DNA from: Candidatus Bathyarchaeota archaeon
GTDB lineage: Archaea; Thermoproteota; Bathyarchaeia; JAPDIZ01
Direction of reading: 5' to 3'
Length of the DNA stretch: 64,000 nucleotides
Assembly: GCA_029259355.1 (NCBI GenBank)
Contig: JAPDIZ010000002.1
Coordinates: 124,001-188,000 of the forward strand
In this document: positions 358 through 63,367 of the stretch, piece by piece
How the letters are laid out: the number at the start of each line of letters is the position of its first letter
How positions within the stretch are numbered: the first letter of the stretch is position 1
Notes under the pieces: model-generated
Told to the model about the DNA's origin: nothing
The model's database searches: none
The model's input: only the letters and a program-made list of their open reading frames with translations
Made by a program: the position numbers and the translations under genes

Positions 358-1521
358 ATGAGGCTAGCGGTAATAGGCGTTGGCCAAGCAGGAGGACGTG
401 TCGCCGACAAGCTAGCCTACTACAACAGGAGAAGAAGAGTGAAGAACGAGATAGTGCCAGCTGCTTTCGCCGTTAACACCGCGAAGAGCGACTTGATGGG
501 GCTTCAGGAAATCCCCCTGAAGAACAGGGTCTTGATCGGGCAGGCGTGGGTCGGTGGACACGGTGTTGGATTAGACAATGAGCTGGGCGCAACCATCATG
601 GAGAAGGAGTTTAGCAAAGTAGAGCATGCCATAATCGAGCGGGGGACCTACGACGTTGACGCTTTTCTGGTAATCGCTGGATTGGGAGGGGGAACGGGCT
701 CTGGTGGAGCTCCAGTACTCGCTAGAGAGCTTAAGAAGCACTATGGCATCCCTGTATACGGTCTCGGAATACTACCCAGTATAGACGAGGGCAAGCTCCC
801 AACCTACAACGCAGCTAGAAGCCTCCTCGAGTTCTACGAATCAACGGATAGCCTCATACTCTTCGACAACGAGGCTTGGAAGGTGGAGAACAAACCCCTC
901 AACGAGGCTTACGACTACATGAACGAGGTGATGGTTAAGCCCTTCACCTACTTGCTGGAGGCTGGTGAAGTCACCGACCCCAAAACTGTAGGAACGAAAG
1001 TTCTAGACGCTTCCGACATAGTCAACACGCTAACGGGCTTCACCGTCATTGGATATACTGAGGAGAAAGTTCCTAGAAGGTTCTTCCTATCAAGCGAGCC
1101 AACCTCCATTGAGCAGTTGGATAGCGTTACCAGAACCTACACCGTGGTTGTCAACGCAGCTGGCAAGCTAACTACTCCGTGCAGAGCAGAAACTGCTAAG
1201 AAGGCATTTATGCTGCTCTGCGGACCCCCCGCCCACATGAACAGAGATGGCTTGGAGAGAGCAAGGAAGTGGCTCGAAGACCTCATCGATGGAGCAGAGG
1301 TTAGAGCAGGAGATTACCCCGTCGGCGGAGACAAGCTCATAGGCATCGTAGCGTTCTCCGGCGTCACCGACATACCTAGGGTTAAGATGATCATGAAGAT
1401 GGGTATCGAGGTTAAGAAGGAGCTAGAGGATTTGAGGAAGTTCGAGGAGAGCGAGGAGATCGACATAATCAAGTTGGGATCCCAACTGCCTAGGTTGACA
1501 AAGAAAAAGGGGGAGGATTAG
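358..1521 (+). CDS. cetZ: CetZ-family tubulin-like GTPase
   Basis: This 387-residue protein belongs to the tubulin/FtsZ superfamily. Glycine-rich loops are clear: GVGQAGGR at residues 7-14, NTAKSDLMG near 40-48 (typical of CetZ rather than FtsZ), and the tubulin signature GGGTGSGG at 110-117. A T7-like region (DASDIVNTLTG) follows in the second half. CetZ proteins polymerise with GTP and control cell shape or division at the membrane; haloarchaeal CetZ1 affects rod shape. The ATG start has GGAGAG upstream. A 63-residue two-helix membrane protein starts at the base after the stop, so the two are probably co-translated. This genome also carries cdvA/cdvB, so CetZ is less likely to be the sole divisome protein. 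Confidence 0.92.
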   Translation: MRLAVIGVGQAGGRVADKLAYYNRRRRVKNEIVPAAFAVNTAKSDLMGLQEIPLKNRVLIGQAWVGGHGVGLDNELGATIMEKEFSKVEHAIIERGTYDVDAFLVIAGLGGGTGSGGAPVLARELKKHYGIPVYGLGILPSIDEGKLPTYNAARSLLEFYESTDSLILFDNEAWKVENKPLNEAYDYMNEVMVKPFTYLLEAGEVTDPKTVGTKVLDASDIVNTLTGFTVIGYTEEKVPRRFFLSSEPTSIEQLDSVTRTYTVVVNAAGKLTTPCRAETAKKAFMLLCGPPAHMNRDGLERARKWLEDLIDGAEVRAGDYPVGGDKLIGIVAFSGVTDIPRVKMIMKMGIEVKKELEDLRKFEESEEIDIIKLGSQLPRLTKKKGED

Positions 1522-57790: not shown

Positions 57791-58618
57791 TTGTCTTCTA
57801 GAGACATCTACCAGCTCATGGTTAAGGCAAAAGAGGTTTTGCCGTATTCGCTTGGGAAGTGCGTCGTCTCTGTTTCGGGAAAAGGCGGCGTGGGGAAGAC
57901 TACATTCACCGCTCTCCTCCTAAAGGCTCTCATAGAGGAAGGAATGGACTCTATCCTCGTCGTAGACGCAGATCCAGATACAAACCTCCCAGACGTTTTG
58001 GGCATTGAGGTAAAGCGAACCGTTGGAGAAGTGGTCACCCGCATGAAGAAAGATATCGACGAGGGAAAAATACCTCCAGGAACCGACAAGGAGCTCATGC
58101 TGGAGGCTATGATCTCGGAGACGCTGATCGAGGGATCCAGCTTCGACATGCTGGTCATGGGTAGGCCAGAGGGAGAGGGGTGCTACTGCTTCGTAAACCT
58201 GCTGCTCACGCGCATACTAGACAGGCTAACCTCTAACTATAGGATCACACTGATGGACATGGAGGCTGGGCTCGAGCACGTAAGCCGCAGAACCGACAGA
58301 GATGTAGACATCATGGTAGTCGTCACCGACGCCTCCAAGATGGGGCTGCTCACTGCTCAGAGGATCCGTAGGCTCGCGAGAGAGGTGCACGTCGAGATAA
58401 GGCAGCTCTACGTAGTCGGTAATCAGATACCACCTGAGCTAGAAGGAGTGGTGAGGAAGAGAGCGCAGGACCTTGCGCTGAAGTACGTGGGTAGCATACC
58501 TTTCGACAAGGAGATCATGGAGTACAACCTAGTGGGGAGGTCTCTTCTGGAGCTTCCGAGCCAAAACCCAGCATACGCCGCTGTGAGGGAGATTGCGCAG
58601 ACTATTCGCTTAGTCTAG
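57791..58618 (+). CDS. cooC: CooC-type nickel-insertion ATPase
   Basis: A 275-residue MinD/ParA-like ATPase. The deviant Walker A is VSGKGGVGKTTFTALL, VDADPDTNLPDVLG is the A'/switch I region, and GRPEGEGCYCFVNLLL holds the CxC pair that binds nickel and dimerises CooC. It helps insert nickel in CO dehydrogenase and acetyl-CoA synthase. It is next to cdhE, and with the CooT-like protein 3 kb away forms a nickel-handling set. Confidence 0.9.
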   Translation: MSSRDIYQLMVKAKEVLPYSLGKCVVSVSGKGGVGKTTFTALLLKALIEEGMDSILVVDADPDTNLPDVLGIEVKRTVGEVVTRMKKDIDEGKIPPGTDKELMLEAMISETLIEGSSFDMLVMGRPEGEGCYCFVNLLLTRILDRLTSNYRITLMDMEAGLEHVSRRTDRDVDIMVVVTDASKMGLLTAQRIRRLAREVHVEIRQLYVVGNQIPPELEGVVRKRAQDLALKYVGSIPFDKEIMEYNLVGRSLLELPSQNPAYAAVREIAQTIRLV

Positions 58619-59324
58619 GGGAGGCAGCCCGATCTTCGGATGCGGGGTAGCGAAAGCTCCTCTTCCTTAGTTGCAACACCTTCGTTGCCACATCTGCTAG
58701 CTTTCTCGTTCTCGTCGTCACGATGAGCGTCTTCCCCTTTCTCATATGCAATCCTCTAAGGAGCGAGATGATGAACTCCGTGGTCATCGGATCCAGATGC
58801 TGAGTAGGCTCATCTAAAACCAATATAGGAGGGTCAGTCACCAAGGCTCTAGCGATCGAAACGCATTGCCTCTCACCAAAGCTAAGCCTCTCTATCCTTC
58901 GATACCCCTTGCCTAAGAGCCCAATCACGTCCAAGACCTGCTCAACCATTTCTGCTCGCTTCCTTGGCGGAACCCCCCTCGCTATCAAAGGGAGCTCTAC
59001 GTTTTCGTAAACCGTGAGGTTAGGGAGAAGGCTTTGTGATTGCAAAGAAATTCCCATGAGCTTAGCTCTAAGTCTAGATAGCTTGTCCTCAGAAAGCTTG
59101 GTTATATCCACACCGTTTACCAACACCATTCCGCTGCTAGGCCTATCCAGCCCAGCGATAATGTTCATCAAAGTAGTCTTCCCGCTTCCTGTAGACCCGG
59201 TTATGACTAGGAAGTCGTTTGGGTATATGTCGAGCGATAGACCGTTGAATATCAAGATAACTTCGTCTTCTGTCCTATACACCTTCTCAACGTCTATTAG
59301 CCTTATAATGGGTTTTTCAGGCAT
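58602..59324 (-). CDS. FtsE/LolD/MacB-type ABC ATPase lacking the H-loop histidine
   Basis: A 240-residue ABC ATPase. Walker A is GSTGSGKTTLMNIIAG, the Q-loop is in ISLQSQSLLPNLTVYENV (as in FtsE/LolD), the signature is LSFGERQ, and Walker B is ILVLDEPTQHLD. The position where the switch histidine normally lies (VTHD) reads VTTRTRKLA, so the catalytic H-loop His is absent and ATPase activity may be slow or lost. It overlaps the end of the permease by eight bases and is the last gene of the cdvA-cdvB-permease-ATPase unit. It overlaps the end of cooC by 17 bases. Confidence 0.85.
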   Translation of the reverse strand: MPEKPIIRLIDVEKVYRTEDEVILIFNGLSLDIYPNDFLVITGSTGSGKTTLMNIIAGLDRPSSGMVLVNGVDITKLSEDKLSRLRAKLMGISLQSQSLLPNLTVYENVELPLIARGVPPRKRAEMVEQVLDVIGLLGKGYRRIERLSFGERQCVSIARALVTDPPILVLDEPTQHLDPMTTEFIISLLRGLHMRKGKTLIVTTRTRKLADVATKVLQLRKRSFRYPASEDRAASPRLSE

Positions 59325-59838
59325 TTTCGCTAAGCTCCGCCAATGATTTGTTCAGCGATCTCGCAACGAGCACAAACCCCGGAACTGCTGCCAAGAGCTC
59401 GCAGGCTACCAGTGCAAAAGCTGAGTCTAGGAGAAACTTCAGAGAAGAGGGAGATTGTAAAAGAAAGGTTGCACACCCAATAGATGCTCCAGTGATGCCT
59501 AGGAAAATGAGCACTAGCCATTGCGAAAAGGAGGATGTGAGTGGATCAAAGCCGAGCACCTTCAGCACAAGGAGATTCTTCAAGCTCTTCTCAGCTACGT
59601 GGTGCAACGTGAGAGAACTGACGAGCGTGATAAGAGCTAAGAGCGAGAACCCCTCGAGGGAGCTGCTCAACGAGCAGTTCATTTTCTGAGCTAGATAGAG
59701 AGCAAAGAAAACCGAGGACGATACCAAAACTATGGCGACCACGTTTAGCTTACGGAAGTCCCTAATTCCATGAGTGGTGATCCACTTAACGCTGTATACC
59801 CACCCCGCAAGTCCTTTAGCGGTCTTCAAGAGAGGCAC
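59317..59838 (-). CDS. minimal FtsX/MacB-like permease
   Basis: A 173-residue membrane protein with four hydrophobic segments (about 33-50, 62-78, 108-128, 140-158). The part AEKSLKNLLVLKVLGFDPL followed by two glycine-rich helices and LVARSLNKSLAELSE resembles the FtsX/MacB permease core. The large extracellular domain of MacB and LolC is missing; this is a compact form. It starts six bases after the cdvB stop and overlaps the next ATPase, so the transporter and cdvB are one transcript. Confidence 0.75.
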   Translation of the reverse strand: MPLLKTAKGLAGWVYSVKWITTHGIRDFRKLNVVAIVLVSSSVFFALYLAQKMNCSLSSSLEGFSLLALITLVSSLTLHHVAEKSLKNLLVLKVLGFDPLTSSFSQWLVLIFLGITGASIGCATFLLQSPSSLKFLLDSAFALVACELLAAVPGFVLVARSLNKSLAELSENA

Positions 59839-59844
59839 CTAAGC

Positions 59845-60687
59845 CTAGTCAATCACCACGATTCTGCCTTCCTTCTCCAGCGCCTCAATGACTTCCTTAA
59901 CTAGCTCAGGAGAGAGCTGCAGATCTGCTGCGCACTTCGCCAAGTTGATGTTTCCTCCATGCTCCTTGACGTACCTATAGACGAGCTCCTTAACGTCTTC
60001 GGAGCTTCCGTCAACGGTTACGCTGACGGGGATTCTGAGCTGAGCAACCTCATCTCTTGAGGAGAGCAGATTTGAGGGTATCTCTGGAAACTTCTCAGCC
60101 ATCTTCTGCTCAGCTACAGCGTAGGCTTCGTTGAGGATTTCTTGTACCTCTTGAGAAAGCGATGCTGAGTCGAGGTTGGGGAGCGCGTCGCTTGGGAGAT
60201 GAAGCACATCCATTAAGCTGTTTAGGGCGAGGTTTATCTCCTCCATCCCCATAGCGATCTCTGGCGTCAAGCTCGACAGCTGGTTCTTCAGGCTTTTGAC
60301 CAGCTTGATTGATGGTCCAAGCGCTACCACGATCTCGCCCAAGTCATGCATAGTCTCTAGCCTAAGGGCTATCTTCTCCAGCGCTAGCTTGCTAGCCATC
60401 ACGGAGCGAAGCATCTTGCGGTTTTCAGCGCACTCAATCGCGTAAATTACGGCTCTAGCGCGGTCTTTCTTCATCTCAGAATCGATGCACTTGTTGAATA
60501 TCTCTTGATCACGCTTCTTCAGCTTGGCGATGACCTGGTCGAGCCTCTTGACGTGGTAGTTTATGAGGTGGATAGCTCTCGCGATTTGCTCTTTTAGGGG
60601 GGGTTCCTTCGCCAGCTTCTTCTCTACCTTACGAAGGATGCCTTCCTCATGCTCTCCACTCCAGCGCTTCGCGAGCTCCTTTGGCAT
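59845..60687 (-). CDS. cdvB: ESCRT-III-like division protein CdvB
   Basis: A 280-residue Snf7-fold protein. The basic helical core (about 10-165) has IARAIHLINYHVKRLDQVIAKLKKRDQEIFNKC and EMKKDRARAVIYAIECAENRKML; an acidic second part follows. The C-terminal 50 residues (VKELVYRYVKEHGGNINLAKCAADLQLSPELVKEVIEALEKEGRIVV) form the winged helix that binds CdvA. CdvB polymers constrict the membrane during division. It starts 32 bases after cdvA. No CdvC/Vps4 ATPase gene is in the window. Confidence 0.9.
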   Translation of the reverse strand: MPKELAKRWSGEHEEGILRKVEKKLAKEPPLKEQIARAIHLINYHVKRLDQVIAKLKKRDQEIFNKCIDSEMKKDRARAVIYAIECAENRKMLRSVMASKLALEKIALRLETMHDLGEIVVALGPSIKLVKSLKNQLSSLTPEIAMGMEEINLALNSLMDVLHLPSDALPNLDSASLSQEVQEILNEAYAVAEQKMAEKFPEIPSNLLSSRDEVAQLRIPVSVTVDGSSEDVKELVYRYVKEHGGNINLAKCAADLQLSPELVKEVIEALEKEGRIVVID

Positions 60688-60719
60688 GCTGGCGGGAACC
60701 CCCCAGGATGCGGCGGGGC

Positions 60720-61469
60720 TTAAGCTCCGTCCATTATCCTTACGAAGAGCGTGTCTCTGCTGGTCTGCTCTTCCTCCTCCACTCGGTAGGAGAGGGTTTC
60801 TGAGGAAGAGGGCTCACTTGCTTCGTGAGCGGTCGTAGCTTGTGTGTGAATAGGTTGCTGCGTGGTTGGCGTGGATGCCTGAAGAGTAGACAGCTGGTGT
60901 AGAGCGTTTTCGAGGTCTCTCCTCTCGTTCGCAAGAGCTTCTATGCATAGCTGGATAAACTCAAGCGCGTCCCTGTAAGATACGTTATCTACTTCGCCTG
61001 CTTTATGCTGCATTTTTAGGTTGACCAAAGCCTTCTCGTGGCCTCTGAGATCTTGTGGTAGGGAGCTTAGCCTATCTTTTATCTTCCCAGCTATCTCTGA
61101 GAGCTTGCTGACTTGGCTCGCCAGCATCTCCTCATACTGTTTATGGAGGTCTTCGTAGACCTCTCTGTCGATGTCGCCAGATCTGAAGAGCTCCTCAACG
61201 GCCTGAACCCTCTTCTTGGCGTAGTCGATCTCCTTCTTCGCTCTCTCAAGCTCCACCTTCCACTCAGGCACCACTACCAGAGCCTCTGGCTCGACGATTA
61301 CCCTGATGTAGGGGTACTCCACGAGCCTACCATCCCAGTGGGCTACGTAGAACTCAGCTCTGTCCCCCGAGAAGTCGAGTGCTACGCCAACTACCTTGCC
61401 GATTTCTCTTCCGTATATGTCCTTTGCGGGTTTGCCCACGATATTATGTGCTAGGTCTCCAGAATACAT
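60720..61469 (-). CDS. cdvA: division protein CdvA
   Basis: A 249-residue protein with a PRC-barrel-type N-terminus (IVGKPAKDIYGREIGKVVGVALDF, about 10-70), a long coiled coil (about 75-195), a Thr/Gln/Ser-rich linker, and the C-terminal E3B-like peptide SRDTLFVRIMDGA that binds the CdvB winged helix. CdvA forms the membrane scaffold that recruits CdvB. The ATG has GGAGGTAGG upstream. First gene of the four-gene cluster. Confidence 0.9.
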   Translation of the reverse strand: MYSGDLAHNIVGKPAKDIYGREIGKVVGVALDFSGDRAEFYVAHWDGRLVEYPYIRVIVEPEALVVVPEWKVELERAKKEIDYAKKRVQAVEELFRSGDIDREVYEDLHKQYEEMLASQVSKLSEIAGKIKDRLSSLPQDLRGHEKALVNLKMQHKAGEVDNVSYRDALEFIQLCIEALANERRDLENALHQLSTLQASTPTTQQPIHTQATTAHEASEPSSSETLSYRVEEEEQTSRDTLFVRIMDGA

Positions 61470-61663: not shown

Positions 61664-62008
61664 TTATAAGCGCCCCCGAACGCTGCTAAGATCCTCTACA
61701 AGCTCATCACCTCTTTCCCTAACCTCTGCCCATAGCTCCCTTACCTTGCTCGCATCAAGCTCTCCCCTAGCGTAAGCTACGAGAGCTTGAACAAACCTCA
61801 TGAAATTCTGAGCCAAGCTTAAGCGGTAAACCCTCATGGTCTCTGTCCTAACGTCTACCTCGCCTATGACGCCACCCTCTATCTCTACTCTTATGCCTAA
61901 GATGTCCTGAACCACCAGCTTTCCATCCTCTAGGCGGGCAGCGATTACGTCCTCAGCGAGAGGCGCTTCGCTTTCCTCGCCAATAACGTAGACCCTAAAT
62001 TCACACAT
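61664..62008 (-). CDS. cooT: CooT-family nickel-binding protein
   Basis: A 114-residue protein starting MCEFRVYVIGEES, with Cys2 next to the initiator Met and a small beta-sandwich (DVIAARLEDGKLVVQDILGIRVEIEGGVIGEVDVRTETMRVYR). This matches the CooT family, small proteins that bind nickel through Cys2 and assist CO dehydrogenase. The C-terminal 50 residues add a helical segment (ALVAYARGELDASKVRELWAEVRERG) not found in the minimal 65-residue forms. Start at ATG 62008, not the ORF's TTG at 62026. Confidence 0.8.
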   Translation of the reverse strand: MCEFRVYVIGEESEAPLAEDVIAARLEDGKLVVQDILGIRVEIEGGVIGEVDVRTETMRVYRLSLAQNFMRFVQALVAYARGELDASKVRELWAEVRERGDELVEDLSSVRGRL

Positions 62009-62062
62009 GCTTACACCACTAAGCAAGACGTAGACGCGAGATAAAACTGTTTATCTGAGCGG

Positions 62063-63367
62063 CTACCTCCTCTCAATGAGCTCTTTGAGGACCGAAAGAA
62101 AGCCTGGCTTGTGAGGTCTGGCAACTTTGGGCTTAACTATGGGCCTCCCCGTTATGCATGCGAGGCAAACGTTTTTGCCCAAAATCTTCCTCAGCGCAGC
62201 AACTGGCAAAGCCTTTACGCCAGTTTCCTCAAGCTCTTCTCTCCTAATGGGATGAAGCGCTGCAAAGCAGGACCTCTTGGGTATAGGTAACACGGAATAA
62301 GCTAGTACTTGGCTTGCCCCAAAGCCTCTGAGAATAGCGCTAACCTGCCTCAGCTCGGTGAAGGTTGGCGGTAGGCCGCACACGAGCGCAACGGAGCCCA
62401 CCTCCTCAAAGCCTTTGGAGAGGGCTTCTCTGTAGAATGGTATGCCTAAGTACTCGGAGAAGCCTATAGCTATCTCCGCATCGCTTTGCCTCAAACAGAC
62501 AACGGCTTCGAGGTAGTCATTTTGGGCGATGCTTGCGAGAGCCCACCCAAGGCTTATTCTAAGATCCCTAACCAGCCCACCCTCAATGAAGGTTTCGGGA
62601 GAGAGGTGTCCCACAAGCTCCATGCAGCATACGCGAGCGTCTCCCTGAAACAGCGGGTACCTACCAACCACACCTCCTGCTCTTCCTATTCTTTTATCGG
62701 ATAGCACCAACACCTCTCCTGGCCTAATCTCAGCGAGGAGCCTTCCACCAACCGACTCGATCGCACAGCTCTCCGAAGCTACTAGCATGAAGTTTTCTCC
62801 CACAGCTCCCAGAAACAGAGGCTTTAGCCCACGCGGATCTCTCGCAGCAATGATGTCGCCATCTCCCGCTAACACCGCAAGCGCGTACCCCCCATCAACC
62901 TCCTCCATCACCCCACTGAAGGCGTCTACCCAATCCGAGCATATCCCGTACTCGGATGCCAAAGCGATTGAAAAGACTTCCACATCCTCCCATGTCTCAA
63001 ACCTACAGCCCATCATCGCATACGTAGCTCTGAGCCGAGCGGGGTCGGAGAGCTTGCCGTCAAGAGAAGTCGCAAACACTGGCTTCTCACGACGTATGAA
63101 GGGCTGGATCTCCTGGCCTACATAGCCGATGGCGTAGGGAGACCTTAGCTGGCTCATCAGCTCATCTGGGGGAGAGGAAGAGGAGGCTTCGACGGGCTTG
63201 GTGAAAGTTACGAACCGATCCTCGTCCTCAAAGGCACATATGCTCATCCTTCCTCCTCCCCTATGCTTAAGCGCGTAGAGCATCCTCCAGAGAAGGGGGG
63301 TGGAGTTTGCGTACCTATCGAGTGAGTAGACAGCGGCTATGCCGCTAACCAGCCAGAATCCCTCCAC
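62063..63367 (-). CDS. PurF paralog lacking catalytic motifs
   Basis: A 434-residue relative of amidophosphoribosyltransferase. The glutaminase half is recognisable (SGIAAVYSLDRYANSTPLLWRMLYALKHRG; RDPRGLKPLFLGA), but the nucleophile Cys is Ser (after MEGFWLV), the HxRYST-like loop and the NG oxyanion motif (here DG in SLDGKLSD) are lost. In the phosphoribosyl half the PRPP loop VDDSIVRGTT is replaced by VALVCGLPPTFTE. A structural or regulatory role is likely. ATG start; the gene stands alone. Confidence 0.82.
   Translation of the reverse strand: MEGFWLVSGIAAVYSLDRYANSTPLLWRMLYALKHRGGGRMSICAFEDEDRFVTFTKPVEASSSSPPDELMSQLRSPYAIGYVGQEIQPFIRREKPVFATSLDGKLSDPARLRATYAMMGCRFETWEDVEVFSIALASEYGICSDWVDAFSGVMEEVDGGYALAVLAGDGDIIAARDPRGLKPLFLGAVGENFMLVASESCAIESVGGRLLAEIRPGEVLVLSDKRIGRAGGVVGRYPLFQGDARVCCMELVGHLSPETFIEGGLVRDLRISLGWALASIAQNDYLEAVVCLRQSDAEIAIGFSEYLGIPFYREALSKGFEEVGSVALVCGLPPTFTELRQVSAILRGFGASQVLAYSVLPIPKRSCFAALHPIRREELEETGVKALPVAALRKILGKNVCLACITGRPIVKPKVARPHKPGFLSVLKELIERR

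Follow-up and report, generated by a model that had tools for sequence, protein, structure and literature searches.

What is a small ABC (ATP-binding cassette) transporter doing in the middle of an archaeal division locus? The question is raised by a 64,000-nucleotide stretch of DNA from a Candidatus Bathyarchaeota archaeon (contig JAPDIZ010000002.1, positions 124,001 to 188,000), analysed as a whole and here called the window, in which genes for a putative permease and an ABC ATPase directly follow cdvA and cdvB. The membrane tie and the timing of the archaeal ESCRT-III (endosomal sorting complex required for transport; Cdv) ring are poorly understood, and to our knowledge few membrane partners of this ring have been found apart from CdvA. 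The initial annotation, made from the sequence alone, had described cdvA, cdvB, permease and ATPase as one run, the first three separated by 32 and 6 bases and the last two overlapping by 8, and this arrangement is confirmed by the coordinates of the open reading frames, all four of which lie on the minus strand in that order:

60720-61469, minus strand: cdvA, the first gene, encoding a PRC barrel and the CdvA coiled coil (PF18822, 3.3e-21; PRC barrel, 0.0016; NF041007, 5.4e-28)
59845-60687, minus strand: cdvB, encoding an ESCRT-III (Snf7) domain and a C-terminal winged helix (Snf7, 4.3e-7; NF041005, 1.9e-47; NF041008, residues 39-278)
59317-59838, minus strand: minimal FtsX-type permease of 173 residues, GTG start, four transmembrane helices, no extracytoplasmic domain
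58602-59324, minus strand: FtsE/LolD/MacB-type ABC ATPase of a cdv-linked subfamily, with LSFGE as signature and R205 in place of the H-loop histidine

The gaps lie at 60688-60719 (cdvA/cdvB) and 59839-59844 (cdvB/permease), the permease and ATPase genes overlap at 59317-59324, and the end of the ATPase gene overlaps by 17 bases with a convergent plus-strand gene at 57791-58618; the four genes may well share a transcript. Since the NF041008 model spans residues 39-278 of CdvB, the winged-helix end is included, and both CdvA and CdvB are ordinary members of the Cdv/ESCRT-III division system of TACK archaea, with CdvC encoded elsewhere in the genome.

Whether the association is more than local was addressed by reading CdvA-containing regions from across the class Bathyarchaeia with a profile for each gene. 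The window genome (1.74 Mb) shares only the class with its nearest relatives among the genomes compared, and the window permease, when used as a single query against 61 genomes, retrieved besides itself only weak, stop-containing matches. As homologous permeases are only 11-24% identical to it, too divergent for such a search, gene neighbourhood and profiles were used instead. A small multi-transmembrane protein followed by this ATPase was found inside the cdv locus in 33 of 257 Bathyarchaeia genomes, belonging to five families and showing three gene orders:

f1 (the window): CdvA, CdvB, permease, ATPase
f4 (6 genomes): Zn-ribbon protein, CdvA, permease, ATPase
f16 (8 genomes), f19 (17) and f23 (1): nine-gene cluster CdvB-CdvA-CdvB-CdvC-Lrp-permease-ATPase-CdvB-CdvA, some copies being ended by contig ends

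The module is present in 26 of the 27 f16, f19 and f23 clusters that reach its position, and four further clusters (L084, L206, L207 and L208) end before it. The cases in f19 and f16 that seemed to lack the module were inspected: those in genomes G039, G069, G072 and G052 proved to be contig ends, and that in G077 (L209) proved to be a true absence; at L218 and L210 the permease is seen only as a shortened reading frame. All module-bearing clusters of f16, f19 and f23 end, in addition, with a second CdvA. The 14 second CdvA proteins included in a tree group as a single clade (support 100/99), to which those at L070 (10166-10777), L074 (10376-10996) and L069 (7918-8592) belong, and the CdvA of the window and of f4 fall with the main CdvA. 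No second CdvA was found in six clusters lacking the module (two from f2, two from f17, one from f11 and one from genus g41 of f19). The second CdvA thus occurs only in clusters with the ABC module, and in f16, f19 and f23 the two come or go together.

The ATPase also forms a subfamily of its own. A profile built from eight cdv-linked members was run over all 257 genomes and its matches were compared with the positions of CdvA; 32 of the 33 best matches fall in cdv loci, and the 33rd linked ATPase scores just below them. A profile made from linked members is bound to score their orthologues highly; the finding is rather that these orthologues have kept the linkage, and in three gene orders. 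Maximum-likelihood analysis places the 23 cdv-linked ATPases apart from 11 generic ones of LolD/MacB type (support 100/99). The window ATPase clusters with those of f4 (99/97), and the window genome's own generic ATPase (L068), encoded near a 449-residue permease, falls in the generic group. It could be that an ordinary LolD/MacB-type exporter merely happens to share a transcript with the cdv genes, since archaeal operons often mix functions and the cdv clusters of several families lack the module. However, the retention of permease and ATPase inside the cdv locus in 33 genomes from five families, in three gene orders, is more than chance, the ordinary exporters of the same genomes sit elsewhere and have full-size permeases and normal motifs, and the second CdvA comes only with the module. 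This explanation, disfavoured already, is therefore very improbable.

The association has clear limits. No cdv-linked member of the subfamily was found in the large Bathyarchaeia families f6, f18, f9, f10 and f22, and no member at all outside the class in a phylum sample of 398 genomes. The five best ATPase matches from outside the class were inspected and belong to MacB-type operons with large permeases, an H-loop histidine and a location away from cdv genes. A CdvA-ABC neighbourhood in f10 was kept separate, since it combines a canonical ATPase with a CdvA-like protein that has no PRC barrel; in this family (L177, L178, L179, L180 and L185) a short CdvA-like coiled coil is divergent from an operon of PadR and a canonical LolD-like ATPase. 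For named genomes, loci were found by a scan with a CdvC alignment, and a CdvB scan gave no match. The initial annotation had asked whether the gene order is conserved in relatives; the tie to cdv genes is conserved, across different gene orders, within the five families but does not extend to archaea in general. Of the patterns that it regarded as speaking against the association, relatives with cdv genes but without the transporter do exist in several families; the transporter itself does not lie mostly far from cdv genes, 32 of the 33 best ATPase matches in the 257 genomes being linked.

What kind of complex is encoded? The window permease alone matches no Pfam or NCBIfam profile, so that its likeness to FtsX/MacB, suggested by the initial annotation, had to be established via its homologues and structure. 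Of 22 aligned homologues, 13 match Pfam FtsX (PF02687), the best at 1.2e-11, and the family profile, compared with solved structures, finds YtrF (9.9e-12) as well as LolF, MacB and LolE; MacB-like permeases of other archaea are retrieved by it too. For the AlphaFold model of the window permease (mean pLDDT 80, pTM 0.66), the best PDB match is the FtsX of ATP-bound FtsE(E163Q)X (8x61; probability 1.00, TM-scores 0.60/0.63); LolCDE and HrtB come next, and the E-values are weak throughout (0.042 for FtsX, the best). The loop between transmembrane helices 1 and 2 counts about 10 residues, in the window permease as in its homologues, and the protein is thus, by sequence and model together, an FtsX-type (type VII ABC) core without an extracytoplasmic domain.

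The ATPase was claimed to be FtsE/LolD-like and to lack the H-loop histidine, and both claims hold. It matches ABC_tran (5.5e-31), and its best NCBIfam models are LolD (7e-52) and FtsE (1.7e-49), which places it in the FtsE/LolD/MacB group, but it passes neither the FtsE equivalog model (TIGR02673, 168.4 bits vs a cut-off of 264.85) nor the LolD model (TIGR02211, 176.1 bits vs 307.75). Walker A, Q-loop, Walker B DE and D-loop are intact, R205 occupies the expected histidine site (LIVTTR), and the signature is LSFGE instead of LSGGE/Q, a point absent from the initial annotation. Among the cdv-linked ATPases, Walker A and the Walker B glutamate are kept, the third residue of LSGGQ/E is replaced in 33 of 33, and the H-loop histidine has become R, N or A in 27 of 33, in four families (f1, f16, f19 and f23); the generic ATPases compared retain the histidine and, in nearly all cases, LSGG. 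Loss of the H-loop histidine usually blocks or slows hydrolysis by ABC ATPases, and ATP binding and dimer closure stay possible. As far as can be read from the motifs, these changes fit an ATP-binding switch. The earlier suggestion of a switch rather than a pump gains from the recurrence of the loss, but since the ATPases of the sister family f4 keep the histidine (TTH), it is likely rather than shown.

The retained histidine of f4 could instead mean that the complex is a real transporter serving division, a small complex of the HrtBA or LolCDE kind that removes or flips lipids or other hydrophobic molecules at the constriction site and so suits the membrane to ESCRT-III. LolCDE and the heme exporter HrtBA are among the fold neighbours, and another type VII system, YbbAP-TesA, is reported to extract hydrophobic compounds from membranes (PMC12646458). 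Against transport stand the loss of the histidine in 27 of the 33 ATPases and the altered signature in all of them, and the clusters share no recurring accessory gene for substrate handling; we regard it as rather unlikely.

The window genome has the components expected of a Cdv system: a CdvA that joins a PRC barrel to the coiled coil, a CdvB in which a winged helix follows the ESCRT-III domain, and a CdvC, which is encoded next to a CdvB at 360-362 kb of contig C2; another CdvB lies at 588 kb of contig C1. No clear FtsZ was found in the window genome, its only two tubulin-family proteins both being CetZ-like (PF21011, E-values 1.2e-40 and 2.5e-26):

window 358-1521, plus strand: CetZ-like tubulin-family gene, PF21011 match
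L229 8561-9787 (G000, contig C2): CetZ-like tubulin-family gene, PF21011 match

FtsZ was accordingly rejected as the division protein, and with CetZ-type tubulins only, and CdvC and two more CdvB encoded elsewhere in the genome, Cdv is likely to be the division system. Alternatively, the cdv locus and its ABC module might serve extracellular vesicles or a membrane-stress response, the ABC complex acting as sensor or cargo selector. Passages of two papers point this way, one linking archaeal ESCRT systems to vesicles as well as division (PMC11188069) and the other reporting PspA/Snf7 genes together with ABC genes in envelope-stress operons (PMC11237479), and in f16, f19 and f23 the module adjoins the second CdvA and a third CdvB. 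In f1 and f4, however, just one full CdvA was found next to the module, and the module has no outer sensor domain, so we consider this possibility quite improbable.

We consider it highly probable, and much more certain than the mechanism, that the module and the Cdv/ESCRT-III set work together in some way; a role in division is inferred from the gene linkage. CdvA and CdvB act at the cytosolic face. Given a permease without an outer domain in the company of CdvA and CdvB, the simplest mechanism would be an ATP-gated anchor or regulator read out inside the cell. We propose, at roughly even chances, that the module works like FtsEX, as an ATP-gated anchor in the membrane, or a regulator, of the Cdv/ESCRT-III apparatus, and that it transports nothing. 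The complex, of type VII, would probably consist of two four-helix FtsX cores without extracytoplasmic domain and two cytosolic ATPases, and would be part of the Cdv division apparatus in this lineage of Bathyarchaeia. In all likelihood no substrate would be moved; ATP binding would close the ATPase pair and the motion would pass to the short membrane helices, by which the complex may act on the CdvA/ESCRT-III polymer at the cytosolic side of the membrane, possibly through contact with CdvA or CdvB, be it in its placement, as an assembly trigger or as a licence for constriction.

Bacterial FtsEX, thought to signal rather than to transport (PMC11627006), is similar in combining an ABC ATPase with a four-helix FtsX core, in being the best structural match of the permease (8x61) and in its placement with division genes. 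Its FtsX binds activators such as EnvC via the extracytoplasmic domain (PMC7668044, PMC11491553). The module differs in lacking this domain between transmembrane helices 1 and 2, which binds hydrolase activators, in having ESCRT-III/CdvA instead of FtsZ as partner, in its altered signature, in the loss of the H-loop histidine in the window and in an ATPase far below the FtsE cut-off. On three counts, namely the outer domain, the FtsE cut-off and the H-loop histidine, the module departs from FtsEX proper and is not classed with it. With LolCDE, MacB, HrtBA and YtrEF, also type VII, it shares a homologous ATPase and permease core, but their permeases have 340-670 residues and outer domains (173 residues in the module) and are not tied to cdv, and the archaeal members compared have canonical motifs, unlike the module. 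It is not a lipoprotein-releasing system either, since the LolD cut-off is missed and a permease of LolC/E size is lacking. Several observations weigh against an FtsEX-like regulator of division: f4 keeps the H-loop histidine, ESCRT-III genes can serve vesicle formation too, bacterial FtsEX acts via the very domain that is missing, so that the output of the module must differ, and cdv clusters without the module in f2, f17, f11, f25, f27 and f8 indicate that related families divide without it.

One sentence in PMC11237479 mentions that ESCRT operons of Asgard archaea include a transmembrane protein together with an ABC ATPase, the text found giving no FtsX identity, motifs or conservation. The arrangement resembles ours, but no ABC ATPase was seen near any of 26 Asgard Snf7/Vps4 (ESCRT) loci sampled. 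The passages found in a broad ESCRT survey (PMC11188069) contain no such ABC module, nor was one described for the TACK Cdv division system in the literature searched, from which subscription papers and preprints were mostly absent, so that an earlier description is possible.

Other genes accompany the clusters. In all six f4 genomes (L037-L041 and L077), a small Zn-ribbon protein whose C-terminal tail is basic and hydrophobic is encoded directly upstream of cdvA, and the cluster contains no cdvB. An AsnC/Lrp-type helix-turn-helix gene lies between cdvC and the next gene in clusters of f16, f19, f23, f17 and f11 (L046 7522-8034, L074 8096-8575, L183 4329-4890) and is a candidate regulator of the division genes. 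In f19, a protein of 370-398 residues with a weak CdvA match (~33 bits) is encoded divergently from the cdv cluster (L074 3151-4344, L075 12535-13722, L083 10737-11879). In the window, the operon is flanked by the gene for a MinD/ParA-type ATPase (57791-58618, plus strand), taken as CooC from its position after carbonyl-metabolism genes, and by a CooT gene (61664-62026, minus strand; PF10133, 3.7e-11). Upstream of cooT and cdvA, on the same strand, lies a gene for a 434-residue glutamine amidotransferase-type protein resembling a PurF paralogue (62063-63367, minus strand; PF13537, 1.2e-12).

The conserved ABC module thus offers a concrete candidate for a membrane partner of the Cdv ring, and the recurrent loss of the H-loop histidine provides a ready-made series of proteins on which to ask if binding of ATP, by itself, is enough for such a complex to act. 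In its fullest form, to which we give slightly less than even chances, the proposal would be that in one branch of Bathyarchaeia a core membrane component of the Cdv/ESCRT-III division ring is an ABC complex derived from FtsEX, which lacks an outer domain and binds ATP but hydrolyses it weakly or not at all, one ATP-driven membrane principle thus serving FtsZ- and ESCRT-based division. If true, the same class of ATP-driven membrane complex would have been recruited to two unrelated division machines, that of bacterial FtsZ and that of archaeal ESCRT-III.

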